Origin: Flavobacterium piscisymbiosum
Lineage (GTDB): Bacteria > Bacteroidota > Bacteroidia > Flavobacteriales > Flavobacteriaceae
Direction of reading: 5' to 3'
DNA: 64,000 nt
Assembly (NCBI RefSeq): GCF_020905295.1
Contig: NZ_JAJJMM010000001.1
Span: 1,178,001 to 1,242,000, forward strand
The notes beneath the pieces were generated by a model. That model had not been told where the DNA came from. It made no database searches and saw only the letters and a list, made by a program, of their open reading frames with translations. This document shows, in pieces, positions 1 to 40,856 of this stretch. Positions within the stretch are counted from its first letter, which is position 1. Each line of letters starts with the position of its first letter. A program made the position numbers and the translations under genes.

Positions 1-3000
1 CTTTTGCCAGGAACTGATCACGTTTTTCTACACTATTGTGAACTGCAATAATTAAATAATAACCACTATCAGAATTTTTAATGTTCTTGATAATCTGCAT
101 ATTCGACTGGTCTTCACCAAAATCAAAATCACTTGCGGTTAATGGTGTACTGCTTATTTTAGTTGTTTCTTTTATACGTTTTAGAGCGGCAACGTCCTGC
201 GCATATCTTCCCTGATCATTCTCGTAAGCTGCACGCTTGATTCTACGTTTTTTCTCAATTTCAGTTTCAGCTTTAATACGTTCTAAATTCGAAAGTAAAG
301 TTGCACTGTCTTCTTCCATTTTTAATTGTGCTGCTTTCAATTGGTTGATCTTATCCAGATACGCTTTGTTTAAAGCATCATTTTTATTCGGGAATTTTTT
401 AAGCCTTTCGTTGTATAAATTAGTCAGCTTAGCAATTTCATCTTTTTGGATTCTGTTCGCATCAGCAAGTTGTGCTTTTAAAGCCTCTAACTGACTGTTT
501 TCGGCCGCAACACTTTTGAAAGGTTTTGGTTCTTTATAAATTCCTTTTTCACTTAAATCATTCTCTTCTTTTAAGTCATTCAAATCTCTTTGTTTATTAG
601 CCACTGTTGTATTGAACTGAGACAATAAATCTTTTTGATTTTTAGTTGAATTTTCAATAGATTGTGTTAAATCATCTATCGCTTTTGCTGTATCATCTTT
701 TGGAGCTGAAGCTGCTTTTGCAAGTGCATCTGCGGCTAGTTTAGCCTGAAGTGCTTCTGCATCCGCTTTCGCTTTGGCATCAGCCAATAATTTTGCTTCA
801 CGTGCTTCTTCTGCTAATCTTAATTGTCTTGTTTCTTCTTCAGCCTGTAATTTTTCTGTAGCTTCTGCATCGGCTTTGGCTCTCTGGTCTGCCAATAACT
901 TAGCTTGTGCAGCTTGCATATCGGCTTTCGCTTTAGCATCCGCATCTAATTTTGCTTGTAATGCTTCTGCATCGGCTTTCGCTTTGGCGTCAGCAGCTAA
1001 TTTTGCTTGCAATGCCTGAGCATCTGCTTTAGCTTTAGCATCGGCAGCTAGTTTCGCTTGTAATGCTTCTGCATCAGCTTTCGCTTTAGCATCGGCAGCT
1101 AGTTTTGCTTGTAGTGCTTCTGCATCAGCTTTCGCTTTAGCATCGGCAGCTAGTTTCGCTTGTAATGCTTCTGCATCAGCTTTCGCTTTAGCATCGGCAG
1201 CAAGTTTTGCTTGTAATGCTTCTGCATCAGCTTTGGCTTTAGCGTCGGCAGCAAGTTTTGCTTGTAATGCTTCTGCATCGGCTTTTGCTTTAGCATCGGT
1301 AGCTAGTTTTGCCTGAAGTGCTTCTGCATCGGCTTTCGCTTTTGCATCGGCAGCTAGTTTTGCTTGTAGTGCTTCGGCATCAGCTTTTGCTTTAGCGTCG
1401 GCAGCAAGTTTTGCTTGTAATGCTTCGGCATCGGCTTTCGCTTTTGCATCAGCAGCTAATTTTGCCAAACGCGCCTCTTCTGCTTCTTGTAATTTCTTCG
1501 CTTCGGCATCCGCTTTCGCTTTAGCAGTTGCTTCTGCATCAGCTTTCACTCTGGCATCGGCAATTAATTTTGCTTGTAATGCTTCCATATCTGCTTTCGC
1601 TTTGGCATCCGCAGCTAATTTTGCCTGAAGTGCTTCTGCATCGGCTTTCGCTTTGGCGTCAGCAGCTAGTTTTGCTTGTAGTGCTTCTGCATCAGCTTTC
1701 GCTTTAGCATCCGCAGCAAGTTTTGCTTGTAATGCTTCTGCATCGGCTTTTGCTTTAGCATCTGCAACTAGTTTTGCTTGTAATGCTTCTGCATCGGCTT
1801 TCGCTTTGGCATCAGCAACTAGTTTAGCTTGTAATGCGTCTGCATCAGCTTTGGCTTTGGCATCGGCTTCTAATTTTATCTTCAATGCTTCTGCATCGGC
1901 TTTCGCTTTTGCATCGGCTTCTAATTTTGCTCTGGCAGCAGCTTCAGCATCAGCCTTCGCTTTTGCATCCGCAGCTATTCTTGCAGCTCTTGCTTCTGCA
2001 TCGGCTTTCGCTTTTGCATCGGCAGCTAATTTTTCTTTTAATGCAGCATCTTCAGCAGCTTTCGCTTTCGCATCGGCAGCTAGTTTTGCTTTGTTAGCAG
2101 CATCAATGCTCGCTTTTGTTTTTACAGCGGCGGCGGCAGCAGCTTTTGCTTCAGCAGCTAATCTTGCCTGATAAGCATCTGAATCGGCTTTTGCTTTCGC
2201 ATCGGCAGCTAAAATAGATTGCAAATCTGCCGCTTCAGCTTTTGCTTTGGCATCAGCTTTACGTTTTGCTTCGGCAGCATCGGCTTTTGCTTTAGCATCG
2301 GCAGCTAATTTTATTTTTAAAGCTTCAGCATCAGCCTTCGCTTTGTTATCTGCTTCTAATTTTGCTTTGGCAGCAGCTTCAGCATCGGCTTTAGCTTTGG
2401 TGTCGGCAGCCAGCTTAATTTTCAATGCTTCTGCATCAGCTTTCGCTTTATCAGCAGCTAATTCTGCTTGTGTTTTTTGTGGTGCAGCTGTAGTTTTTGC
2501 TTTTGCAGCGGCTGCGGCATCGGCTTTTGCTTTATCTGCAGCCAATTTAGTTCTCAATGCTTCAGCATCAGCTTTAGCTTTATCAGCTGCTAATTGTGCC
2601 TGAGTCTTTTGAGCAGTTGTTGCAGCAGGTTTATTTGCAATTGCTTGCGCTCTCGCAGCAGCAGCAGCATCTACTCTAGCTTTATTATCTGCAGCTAATT
2701 TTATTCTGCGTGCTTCAGCATCGGCTCTCGCTTTGTCTGCAGTCAATTGTGCTTGTGTTTTTTGTTGTGTAGCAACTGCTCTGTTTGTCGTTGCTGTTTG
2801 TGATCTAGTTGCATCAGCTTTTGCTTTTGCATCTGCAGCTAATTTTATTTTTAATGCTTCAGCATCCGCTTTAGCTTTATTATCGGCTTCTAATTTTGCT
2901 TTTGCAGCAGCTTCGGCATCGGCCTTCACTTTTTCGGCTGCAGCCAATCTTATTTTAAGTGCTTCTGCATCGGCTTTAGCCTTAGCTTCGGCAGCAAGTT

Positions 3001-4030
3001 TTGCTGTTTCGGCACCACTTACTCTTGTTACCGGAGTAGTAGTTTTTTTAGCCATTACTGCTTTTGGTTTCGAAGGATCTATTAAAGAACCTTCTTCATC
3101 ATCACCATAGTAATAGTTTTTATTTTTGAATTTATAAGCAATTGCAAATTCATGAGAACCTCCCAAATTGGTAAAATTCCCCATACCTCTCTCGTAATTG
3201 TATTCGATAGCGATACTTGGCGAAATATTAATACCCAAACCTGCTGATATTCCGTATAAAGTATTGTAACCAGCCTGTGCCCAAATTCCTTGCGGAATGG
3301 CAATCATGGCAAGTCCTGAAATTATTGTTTTATCTTGTTTGATTTCTGTTTTTACAAGTCCTGAGAATTTACTTCTGTCAAAAAATCCATAACTATCAAG
3401 ATAACCTGTGTACATAGCATGCAATTCGATCGCTCTTTCCGGATCATCTTTTACGATTCCTGAACCGAAATTGTAAAGTATAAGATTGTTTACAGAAACT
3501 CCAAAATCAAGAAATGCAGTACCGTAGTTGATACCAGGATTAACAGTAAGTAATGTGTTTGAAGGGTAATCTAAATTTAAAAGATTTGGATCATCAGATA
3601 TGATTTTTCCTTTGTTTAAACCACTTTGGTATACGCCAACGTTCATACCAAAAGTTAAGTTACTGTCTTGTTCTAAAACGATGTTATGAGCAAAGTTTCC
3701 TATTCCGCCAAAAACGGTCATTAAACCATAATTTTGCTGGAATAAGCCAAAAGCAAACGCTTCATTTTCTCTAAAACGTCCTGAATAATTGGCTAAATAA
3801 GTATTTGGTGCATCTTCAAATTGCACCCATTGCCTTTTATTATAAAAGCTTGCGTATGCATTTGTTTCGCGAACAAAACTAAATGTTGGGTTGATTAAAT
3901 ATCTATTAAACTTTAAAGAATTTCTGATAGGTAATGAAAACGAAACAACTCCATTCTCAGGTTTGTCCTGGGAATAGAGTGTATTTGAAAAACCGTAAAA
4001 TAAAGTGATGAATAGTAAAATTTTCTTCAT
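1..4030 (-). CDS. PorP/SprF-family T9SS outer-membrane protein with giant Ala/Lys repeat region (partial)
   Basis: Reads leftward from ATG at 4028-4030 and stays open to the window edge (at least 1343 codons), so the stop lies outside. The N-terminus is a signal peptide (MKKILLFITLFYGFSNTLYS) followed by about 300 residues typical of PorP/SprF barrels, including a WVQFEDAPNTYLANYSGRF segment and a GxxxSPSIAIEYNYERG-like strand near the end. Residues from about 337 to 1110 are roughly 45 copies of a 17-residue unit close to DAKAKADAEALQAKLAA, resembling the helical domain II of TolA. After about residue 1110 comes a charged coiled-coil stretch, then a segment (GYYLIIAVHNSVEKRDQF) that looks like the start of a SPOR-type or related domain. 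PorP/SprF proteins act in type IX secretion, often as partners of type B cargo; such a cargo is encoded one base upstream. The barrel assignment is fairly firm; the role of the repeat rod is inference. Confidence 0.85.
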   Translation of the reverse strand, partial: MKKILLFITLFYGFSNTLYSQDKPENGVVSFSLPIRNSLKFNRYLINPTFSFVRETNAYASFYNKRQWVQFEDAPNTYLANYSGRFRENEAFAFGLFQQNYGLMTVFGGIGNFAHNIVLEQDSNLTFGMNVGVYQSGLNKGKIISDDPNLLNLDYPSNTLLTVNPGINYGTAFLDFGVSVNNLILYNFGSGIVKDDPERAIELHAMYTGYLDSYGFFDRSKFSGLVKTEIKQDKTIISGLAMIAIPQGIWAQAGYNTLYGISAGLGINISPSIAIEYNYERGMGNFTNLGGSHEFAIAYKFKNKNYYYGDDEEGSLIDPSKPKAVMAKKTTTPVTRVSGAETAKLAAEAKAKADAEALKIRLAAAEKVKADAEAAAKAKLEADNKAKADAEALKIKLAADAKAKADATRSQTATTNRAVATQQKTQAQLTADKARADAEARRIKLAADNKARVDAAAAARAQAIANKPAATTAQKTQAQLAADKAKADAEALRTKLAADKAKADAAAAAKAKTTAAPQKTQAELAADKAKADAEALKIKLAADTKAKADAEAAAKAKLEADNKAKADAEALKIKLAADAKAKADAAEAKRKADAKAKAEAADLQSILAADAKAKADSDAYQARLAAEAKAAAAAAVKTKASIDAANKAKLAADAKAKAAEDAALKEKLAADAKAKADAEARAARIAADAKAKADAEAAARAKLEADAKAKADAEALKIKLEADAKAKADADALQAKLVADAKAKADAEALQAKLVADAKAKADAEALQAKLAADAKAKADAEALQAKLAADAKAKADAEALQAKLAADAKAKADMEALQAKLIADARVKADAEATAKAKADAEAKKLQEAEEARLAKLAADAKAKADAEALQAKLAADAKAKADAEALQAKLAADAKAKADAEALQAKLATDAKAKADAEALQAKLAADAKAKADAEALQAKLAADAKAKADAEALQAKLAADAKAKADAEALQAKLAADAKAKADAEALQAKLAADAKAKADAQALQAKLAADAKAKADAEALQAKLDADAKAKADMQAAQAKLLADQRAKADAEATEKLQAEEETRQLRLAEEAREAKLLADAKAKADAEALQAKLAADALAKAASAPKDDTAKAIDDLTQSIENSTKNQKDLLSQFNTTVANKQRDLNDLKEENDLSEKGIYKEPKPFKSVAAENSQLEALKAQLADANRIQKDEIAKLTNLYNERLKKFPNKNDALNKAYLDKINQLKAAQLKMEEDSATLLSNLERIKAETEIEKKRRIKRAAYENDQGRYAQDVAALKRIKETTKISSTPLTASDFDFGEDQSNMQIIKNIKNSDSGYYLIIAVHNSVEKRDQFLAK
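705..3020 (-). repeat. 51-bp in-frame tandem repeat array
   Basis: About 45 consecutive units of 51 bp (17 codons) sit inside the PorP/SprF-like gene. Units between about 950 and 1440 are nearly identical. Those from about 2000 to 3000 are more divergent and show length variants (for example GCTAAAGCGGATGCTGAAGC read leftward). Because the period is a multiple of three, gain or loss of units keeps the frame. The array is also a likely place for assembly collapse. Confidence 0.9.
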
Positions 4031-12264: not shown

Positions 12265-12341
12265 TCTTTTCTCTTTTCTCTTTTCTCTTTACTCTTTATT
12301 CTTTATTCTTTATTCTTTACTCTTTACTCTTTACTCTTTTC
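12265..12341. repeat. Heptanucleotide microsatellite, 11 units
   Basis: Eleven consecutive 7-bp units of the form TCTTT(T/A)(C/T) run from 12265 to 12341. The plsC stop codon (12324-12326) lies inside the array, so indels of one unit (7 bp, not a multiple of 3) would change the C-terminus of that protein. Confidence 0.85.
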
Positions 12342-39935: not shown

Positions 39936-40295
39936 ATGGGAGTTATAAAATTAAAAAACATCCGTACTTTTTCGTACCACGGATGCATGATTGAAGAAGG
40001 AAAAATTGGATCTGACTACACTGTCGATCTAAAAATTAAAACTAATTTACAGAAATCAGCCGACACAGATCATCTTGCCGACACTGTTGATTATGTACAT
40101 TTGAACAAAATTGTTACCGAAGAAATGGCCATTCGTTCGCATTTATTAGAGCATGTAGCCAAAAGAATCAATATTCGAGTACTTGCTGAAATAGAAACTG
40201 CAAAAAAAACTACAGTTTGGGTTTCTAAAATAAATCCCCCTATTGGTGGTGATGTTGAATCAGTTACTATAAAAATGACGGAAATTAGAAAGTAA
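39936..40295 (+). CDS. folB: Dihydroneopterin aldolase
   Basis: 119 residues, the usual length. MGVIKLKNIRTFSYHGCMIE EEG-type start contains the F-x-Y/HG-x-x-x-E-E signature (YHGCMIEEGKIG), with Glu near residue 22 in the pterin site. YTVDLKIKTNLQKSADTDHL then ADTVDYVHLNKIVTEEMAIR and the late PPIGGDVESVTIKMTEIRK are typical. It converts dihydroneopterin to hydroxymethyl-dihydropterin in folate synthesis. It is encoded divergently from glnS across a short repeat, and tRNA-Cys follows it by 94 bp. Confidence 0.92.
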   Translation: MGVIKLKNIRTFSYHGCMIEEGKIGSDYTVDLKIKTNLQKSADTDHLADTVDYVHLNKIVTEEMAIRSHLLEHVAKRINIRVLAEIETAKKTTVWVSKINPPIGGDVESVTIKMTEIRK

Positions 40296-40372: not shown

Positions 40373-40389
40373 CCATCCGTTCAACTACG

Positions 40390-40460
40390 GCGTCGTGGCC
40401 GAGCGGCTAGGCTGGGCTCTGCAAAAGCTCCTACTCCGGTTCGAATCCGGACGATGCCTC
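40390..40460 (+). tRNA. tRNA-Cys (anticodon GCA)
   Basis: 71 nt. The acceptor 5' GGCGTCG (40390-40396) pairs with CGATGCC (40453-40459), with one G.T pair. The D-stem is GCC/GGC; the anticodon loop CTGCAAA holds GCA at 40422-40424; the T-arm is TCCGG-TTCGAAT-CCGGA. The discriminator is T40460 and no CCA is encoded. Its 3' end from the T-loop on is repeated four more times downstream. Confidence 0.95.
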
Positions 40461-40856
40461 TAAAACCTTCAAAGCAATTTGAAGGTTTTTTTATGTTTAA
40501 TTTTTAGAAAAAATTAGATAAAGATTTACGTTCGAATCCGGACGATGCCTCTAAAACCTTCAAAGCAATTTGAAGGTTTTTTTATGTTTAATTTTTAGAA
40601 AAAATTAGATAAAGATTTATGTTCGAATCCGGACGATACCTCAAAACCTTCAAAGCAATTTGAAGGTTTTTTTTATGTTTAATTTTTAGCAAAAATTAGA
40701 TAAAGATTTACGTTCGAATCCAGACTATACCTCAAAACCTTCAAAGCAATTTGAAGTTTTTTTTATGCTTAATTTTTAGAAAAAAATAGATAAAGATTTA
40801 CGTTCGAATCCAGACGATGACTCTAAAACCTCTAAATTACTTTAGAGTTTTTTTTT
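40440..40856 (+). repeat. Tandem array of the tRNA-Cys 3' end plus terminator, period 90-91 bp
   Basis: Units start at 40440, 40530, 40621, 40712 and 40802. Each begins GTTCGAATCC and has the acceptor 3' end, a short hairpin terminator and an AT-rich tail (AAATTAGATAAAGATTTAC). Unit 1 is the real tRNA; unit 2 is almost identical. Units 3 to 5 drift (GATACC, then CCAGACTATACC, then CCAGACGATGAC), and from unit 4 the T-stem is broken (CCGG to CCAG). Unit 5 has a new hairpin (ACCTCTAAA/TTTAGAG). Confidence 0.9.
40463..40493 (+). terminator. tRNA-Cys terminator
   Basis: ACCTTCAAA (40466-40474) and TTTGAAGGT (40479-40487), loop GCAA, then seven T. The same hairpin recurs at about 40556, 40647 and 40738 as part of the tandem array. 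Confidence 0.85.

Follow-up and report, generated by a model that had tools for sequence, protein, structure and literature searches.

A hairpin repeat accompanies tandem copies of a tRNA-Cys end in Flavobacterium and copies of other gene ends in related bacteria

Why should a tRNA gene be trailed by a series of partial copies of itself? One locus of Flavobacterium piscisymbiosum raises this question. We analysed a 64,000-nucleotide stretch of its genome (hereafter the window; positions are counted from its first letter), in which a functional tRNA-Cys (GCA) gene lies on the forward strand (40389..40459; Rfam RF00005, 50.6 bits; 40389-40460 according to ARAGORN). The last 20 nt of the tRNA body recur in four extra copies 3' of the gene, at steps of 90-91 bp. 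Copies of GTTCGAATCC start at 40439, within the tRNA itself, and at 40530, 40621, 40712 and 40802, and Tandem Repeats Finder returns a single array (40439-40831, period 91, 4.3 copies, 94% matches, score 686). A preliminary description of this DNA had reported such a serial repeat of the tRNA-Cys 3' end and its terminator, which our results confirm, although the first copy starts one base earlier than the 40440 given there. With up to two mismatches, GTTCGAATCCRGACGATG has five matches in the 6.49-Mb genome, all of them in the tRNA-Cys array, and the reversed pattern has none; the array is thus far beyond chance.

The array consists of five units, all on the forward strand. Unit 1 (40439..40529, 91 bp) begins with the tRNA 3' end, from 40439 on, and continues with a terminator, a tail and a linker. 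Over the first 20 nt, unit 2 (40530..40620, 91 bp) matches the tRNA without mismatch, unit 3 (40621..40711, 91 bp) has one mismatch, unit 4 (40712..40801, 90 bp) has three and unit 5 (40802..40856), the last, has two. All four extra copies begin at the last base of the 5' strand of the T-stem and therefore none can form a T-arm; the preliminary description had this stem lost by copy 4, but it is missing from every extra copy. A terminator hairpin is present in five of the five units, on the forward strand, and is visible in many tRNA-Cys units of relatives. It was detected as an inverted repeat in units 1 to 3 (40462..40489, 40553..40580 and 40643..40670) and is weakened in unit 4 (40734..40761; from the sequence and an inverted-repeat search). 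In unit 5 (40825..40856, read off the sequence) it differs from the others, being CCTCTAAATTACTTTAGAGG instead of CCTTCAAAGCAATTTGAAGG, a replacement that the preliminary description had already noticed.

Between terminator and next copy the preliminary description saw a plain AT tail. This stretch carries instead a conserved linker that it missed, a 25-bp AT-rich hairpin ending in TAAAG and pointing away from the gene. The exact sequence AATTTTTANNAAAAATTANNTAAAG occurs at 40499..40523, 40590..40614 and 40681..40705, and a variant, AATTTTTAGAAAAAAATAGATAAAG, at 40771..40795, all on the forward strand; unit 5 has no linker behind it. The hairpin of the first linker is predicted with DNA parameters (-3.6 kcal/mol, z -2.35). 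Each unit thus reads, in order, tRNA 3' part, terminator, T-rich tail, hairpin AATTTTTARRAAAAATTA, NNTAAAG and usually 4-6 nt before the next copy; this gap from TAAAN to the copy measures 4-6 nt in 283 of the 299 matches listed, in which arrays fetched twice are counted twice.

The neighbours of the array are folB, which encodes dihydroneopterin aldolase (39936..40295, forward strand; Pfam PF02152), a 178-aa frame without Pfam match, a LysE-type transporter and an RNase R-like gene. Rfam at gathering threshold gave the tRNA as the sole match between 39000 and 42000, RF00391 (RtT) being absent. As had been stated before, there is no cargo between the copies, since no frame in the list of open reading frames fits into their 90-bp spacing, and no integrase nearby: the closest PF00589 matches in this genome lie ~395 kb (below the cut-off) and ~465 kb away. 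Two other tandem repeats were seen in the window, a 51-bp repeat at 920-3002 (22.7 copies in 920-2091, with more arrays to 3002) that may encode a repeat protein and, at 12265-12339, the heptamer TCTTTAC in 10.7 copies with 95% matches.

To follow the locus through Flavobacterium, we used folB as anchor, which is present in 190 of 199 genomes of the genus, and took 110 loci, that of our own genome included; tRNA-Cys is within reach in 99 of them and missing from 11. The FolB encoded in the window is 98% identical to that of F. piscis. Unit number in these 99 loci ranges from one to six (one unit in 37, two in 25, three in 20, four in 7, five in 7 and six in 3), so that the array is dynamic, as the preliminary description had considered it might be. 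At least two units are found in 62 of the 99 loci under a rule of up to 8 mismatches in 20, with 12 of the 62 second units having 6-8 mismatches, some of which may be chance or another copy type, and in 50 under a stricter rule (up to 5 in 20). Among 80 named Flavobacterium records (up to 7 mismatches), 61 have at least two units, one has seven, and the 19 with a single unit include one (L193) truncated by a contig end. Short-read assemblies may collapse identical units, which would lower some of these counts. An assembly artefact was considered and ruled out, as arrays occur in single-contig genomes (four units in G042, six in G010). Arrays of this type recur throughout the genus and in further genera of the family, so that the one in the window is neither an accident of its strain nor confined to this assembly. 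When 79 named species (18 single) are placed on a tree built from the DNA upstream of the tRNA, the single- versus multi-unit state changes 17 times against a shuffled mean of 16.2, so the state carries no phylogenetic signal and unit number turns over fast. The existence of single-unit species suggests that the array can be dispensed with, at least for short times.

The copies also have a history within each array. The second copy is less decayed than the last in 32 pooled arrays, more decayed in 14 and tied in 15 (p = 0.011, resting on 61 arrays of at least three units), and the stricter unit rule gives 27, 10 and 16 (53 arrays; p = 0.008); the decay with distance noted earlier is therefore real but slight. 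Copies follow the tRNA of their own genome: in 11 genomes of the genus with an uncommon tRNA type, 19 copies are nearer to that type, none is nearer to the common one and 3 are ties. Terminators fall into several stem classes, and the class of unit 1 differs from that of unit 2 in 64 of 104 pooled arrays. As dispersed repeats the terminators were rejected on the evidence of the 64-kb window, in which a search for classes B, C and D gave no match and class A occurs in the array alone.

Such dynamics are what replication slippage with unequal crossing-over would produce. A chance partial duplication of tRNA-Cys in an ancestor of the family would since have been expanded, contracted and homogenised with the gene, and the linker would be old flank. 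Fast change of unit number, copies that follow their own tRNA type and the mixing of terminator classes all agree with this, as do whole-unit neighbours that are identical in some genomes (L008, L045).

Within the genus, the exact linker is found in 129 of 398 genomes, and the reversed-pattern control in 0 of 398. A fuzzy linker pattern is present within unit 1 in 57 of the 62 multi-unit genomes versus 6 of the 37 single-unit ones, and at least three of those six (L151, L155 and L158) hold an anticodon-type copy that the T-loop rule leaves uncounted. By eye, the last unit is often without the right half of the linker. Another dispersed repeat often starts there: in several of the loci L011-L036, a longer inverted repeat (TTGTCATTTCGACGAAGGAGAAATC...) downstream of the last unit was seen by eye to begin about midway through the linker palindrome of that unit.

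The linker is alike where its surroundings are not. Across 30 chosen loci (L378 being left out of 31), linkers compared from clade to clade or from genus to genus have a similarity of 0.79-0.81 (shuffled 0.54-0.55), a value inflated by the use of a fuzzy linker pattern in picking and locating the loci, versus 0.41-0.57 for the flanks of the same loci (shuffled 0.40-0.47); the terminator region is intermediate. Regions upstream of the tRNA show little or no conservation between clades. An alignment of 73 linkers, from which 5 of 78 stretches were left out as misplaced or as no linker, has nine invariant columns. Its hairpin columns are 95.5% paired, with five double changes at two pairs, which is above shuffles but few, and of four linker examples that were folded three did better than most shuffles and one no better. 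Within arrays, linker versus T-arm divergence shows no significant difference, standing at 53 versus 35 in diverged comparisons (p = 0.07) and at 60 versus 48 in all 111 comparisons (p = 0.29). A duplicated tRNA promoter was tried as the source of the linker and rejected, the 80 bp upstream at 35 loci giving no consistent match by eye.

Beyond Flavobacterium, we searched 249 genomes of the family at the DNA level and read 28 high-scoring, 40 lower-scoring and 13 later loci. The same linker lies behind tRNA-Cys in other genera, where the flanking DNA is no longer alike. Copies begin there with the anticodon (G417, G480 and G441, with periods of 109, 137-138 and 116-118 bp), with the variable loop (in G368) or close to the T-loop (in G354). 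By reading, many lower-scoring loci are without it, and L294 (G211) alone among the 40 has it. With presence scored by eye on a GlnRS tree of 30 chosen genomes, the linker is found in 7 of the 8 Flavobacterium genomes, in 12 of the 17 that form a separate group (decayed in 2 more and missing in 3) and in none of the 5 in a third group. Allowing up to two mismatches, it occurs in 44 of 397 family genomes and the reversed pattern in 18 by our count, most genomes being without a match; the family genomes with the exact linker have it beside tRNA-Cys in 8 of 8 cases. In 246 genomes from other families of the order, no match with up to one mismatch was found. At a further locus (L422; G927:C1:439700-442700) a transposase-like insertion of ~1.8 kb with the ends GGAGGGTACTG and CAGTACCCTCC interrupts one of the tRNA-Cys units (by eye).

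The linker is not confined to tRNA-Cys. Behind tRNA-Ser in G197 stand five units of 71-72 bp, each with the T-loop start of that tRNA or a near copy of it, and none with a terminator-like hairpin by eye. In G727 the linker lies at the 5' end of tRNA-Leu(TAA) and is followed by a copy of that end; altogether, it accompanies the 5' end of tRNA-Leu(CAA) in five genomes and of tRNA-Leu(TAA) in three. We scored 76 linkers in 40 loci, hand-picked rather than random from the matches listed and favouring places away from tRNA-Cys or unchecked: 59 are beside tRNA-Cys, 7 beside tRNA-Leu(CAA), 2 beside tRNA-Leu(TAA) and 8 without a complete tRNA. Four of these eight lie in one locus (L427), in a stretch that begins inside tRNA-Cys, and another locus (L420) has the linker at a contig start, ahead of a T-loop-like copy; L441, L451 and L454, described below, hold the other three. 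The polarity is uniform, a complete tRNA being 5' of the linker strand for 68 of the 76 linkers and 3' for none. One linker (L441) adjoins what we take to be, possibly, a 5S-like rRNA 3' end; Rfam gave no 5S match there and it was not counted as a target.

A protein-coding gene is a target as well. In L451 the linker stands at the start of ribB (PF00926, 261 bits), between direct copies of 92 bp whose first 64 are identical, with a local score of 164 versus a maximum of 48 in 100 shuffles; in L454 there was no duplication above shuffles (score 41 versus 67). Linkers at tRNA-Leu lie on the other strand from the tRNA, of which the first 10-15 nt are copied. Copies there end where the tRNA ends, and copy-to-linker spacers differ between units of one array, with copy and linker staying alike; since the spacers mismatch, ribB is the single case of a clean target duplication. 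The targets are not all independent in sequence, because most tRNA-Cys copies of the genus and the tRNA-Ser copies have the T-loop start GTTCGAATCC in common and two Leu copies share CCATCCG-GC. By eye, the anticodon-type Cys, the Leu and the ribB copies share no core with those of the GTTCGAATCC type. The position of the linker opposite the tRNA strand at Leu indicates that it acts as DNA. An RNA element was accordingly rejected, Rfam having given the tRNA alone and the linker being antisense to the tRNA at Leu.

One general form covers these observations: X - spacer - linker - (a gap of usually 4-6 nt) - X', with X standing for a gene end, mostly of a tRNA, and X' for its direct copy. This layout, its polarity, its presence at tRNA-Cys, at tRNA-Ser, at two tRNA-Leu genes and at ribB, and the rapid change of unit number are observed, and the linker is the feature that raises the array above local slippage. 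Slippage accounts for the dynamics at tRNA-Cys but leaves the occurrence at other genes unexplained: tRNA-Ser, tRNA-Leu 5' ends and ribB have this linker beside them too, it is alike between genera whose flanks are not, and behind this one linker the copy start varies by lineage (anticodon, variable loop, T-loop). As a full account of the array, we consider slippage unlikely.

With modest confidence, we favour instead the reading that the array in the window is one case of a hairpin repeat which, on arriving or being duplicated, copies the end of its neighbouring gene. As one linker accompanies several different gene ends, the copies most likely come from the target and not from the element, which favours either insertion or a duplication provoked at the TAAAG end, followed by recombination between units. 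The linker would act in cis within a tiny non-coding element. When it inserts, or when a duplication is triggered at the TAAAG end, the neighbouring gene end would be copied; the gene would stay intact, with the linker and one extra copy outside it. Repeated events, or unequal recombination between units, would then build arrays of the form (X-linker)n-X, exchange terminators from unit to unit and remove copies once more. Having no evident function, the copies would decay. The agent may be a nuclease or transposase that recognises the hairpin in trans. More tentatively, and as a possibility that we hold with some doubt, there may be a new class of genetic element, a non-coding hairpin of ~35 bp that spreads by inserting beside genes, above all stable-RNA genes, and duplicates the end of its neighbour as it does so, so that the host gene would stay unbroken and each arrival would create a fresh landing pad; arrays of the type seen in the window would then be records of repeated arrivals at one tRNA.

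A second alternative starts from islands of accreted attachment sites. CIMEs and similar accreted att islands at tRNA 3' ends have direct repeats of the tRNA end, accrete in tandem and keep one orientation, as here. Minimal elements between att sites could have been placed at tRNA ends by a tyrosine recombinase acting in trans. The tRNA targets, the direct repeats, the tandem accretion and the constant orientation would all follow, the copies nearer the tRNA are the less decayed ones, and GTTCGAATCC, in most tRNA-Cys copies of the genus and in the tRNA-Ser copies, is a possible core. A single attP/attB core is nevertheless a misfit to copies that begin at the anticodon, at tRNA-Leu 5' ends or at ribB. 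Moreover, the units are gene-less and ~65-140 bp long, the copied sequence varies by locus and the linker is constant, and no integrase lies within ~395 kb in the genome analysed. Searches with array and linker found no match in viral contigs (exact patterns) or in phage and plasmid records (blastn). Remnants of attachment sites of one integrase, which the preliminary description had offered as an explanation, are thus unsupported as a general cause, and we regard accreted att cassettes as quite improbable.

It had also been proposed that the array protects the tRNA as a deliberate stack of terminators or decoys. A host-selected structure of this kind, be it a back-up terminator stack or a set of decoys drawing nucleases or insertions off the tRNA, would explain why many copies show terminator hairpins and why a palindrome (TCCCGA...TCGGGA or a variant of it) stands within the T-loop or close to it in the copies of several genomes. 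Unconstrained copies would, however, also be expected to gain palindrome insertions, and 18 of 79 named species manage with a single unit, scattered like shuffled labels. The tRNA-Ser units without a terminator-like hairpin by eye and the tRNA-Leu units upstream of their gene make the stack unlikely as a general cause, and we judge host selection as a whole to be very unlikely.

The palindrome occurs more widely than the array. It or a variant is found at 173 places in the genome (reversed pattern, 1), none of them in the window, and partial tRNA copies of several species and genera have it instead of the anticodon arm, or else within the T-loop or close by. Loci with the palindrome in our genome include a tRNA-Pro (L083; C1:244361) and a tRNA-Arg cluster (L074; C1:5697251), and further palindrome-bearing copies were seen in L052, L144, L145, L151, L155, L158, L159, L294, L364, L365, L382 and L383. 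The same genome has tandem cassettes behind tRNA-Ala(GGC) (L114; C1:723100-725000) and tRNA-Val(TAC) (L094; ~C1:4526156), each composed of a terminator, a small GIY-YIG nuclease frame and a partial tRNA copy with anticodon arm and/or T-loop swapped for palindromes; in the Ala cassette the nuclease frame matches PF01541 and stops inside the tRNA copy. Beyond the tRNA-Cys array of G458, and not between its copies, lies a 116-aa frame with a weak GIY-YIG match (L380:75-425). That our arrays are gene-less derivatives of such nuclease cassettes is most improbable: the cassettes share the layout and tRNA copies with loops replaced by palindromes, tRNA-Cys copies of other species have the same palindrome type, and the G458 frame (23.6 bits, cut-off 22.6) stands just past a tRNA-Cys array, but no linker was seen in the two cassettes read, and phmmer with the nuclease of the Ala cassette matched L114 and L094 alone among loci up to L434.

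How, then, does the favoured reading, a hairpin repeat that comes with copies of its neighbour, compare with known systems? The nearest precedent is the repeats of E. coli tyrT/tyrV (RtT RNA, Rfam RF00391), which are likewise tandem repeats 3' of a tRNA containing its 3' end. The tyrT/tyrV region has four RtT matches, and behind tyrV the last 20 nt of tRNA-Tyr (up to one mismatch) recur at 159, 337 and 515 nt, a period of 178 bp. The window array is RtT-like in its tandem units of tRNA tail, but has no match to RF00391. RtT further differs in its 178-bp unit, its single kind of tRNA and a copy that is the CCA end, whereas here copies start at the T-loop or the anticodon loop, varying by lineage. 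MITEs and REP-type repeats are short, non-coding, palindromic and found at several places, as is the linker repeat. Unlike them, it has no terminal inverted repeats that we recognised, it comes with a duplication of the adjacent gene end (~10 to 92 bp) and most of its copies examined adjoin tRNA genes; a target duplication of the MITE type is clean at ribB (L451, with the 92-bp direct copies), and 10-15 nt match at tRNA-Leu. In CRISPR adaptation and casposon insertion, some tens of base pairs are inserted, the target is duplicated and a less decayed copy lies at one end; here, in what is an analogy, the insert is constant and the target variable. The nick sites of HUH enzymes have a layout that is resembled by the hairpin and its junction at a short, nearly fixed distance. 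A literature search covering titles and the openings of abstracts, with older subscription papers on tyrT outside it, gave no description of this repeat.

Even under slippage, a 25-bp hairpin that is alike between genera, chiefly where copies of gene ends follow it, would need explaining. If the favoured reading is true, a constant insert with a variable, sometimes long target copy would be unlike any of the mobile-element mechanisms compared here and would point to a nuclease or transposase. It would bear on arrays of tRNA tails such as that of E. coli tyrT, and would offer a natural record from which duplications at tRNA genes could be counted. The family would then harbour a very small repeat able to add itself alongside tRNA genes while leaving those genes unbroken.
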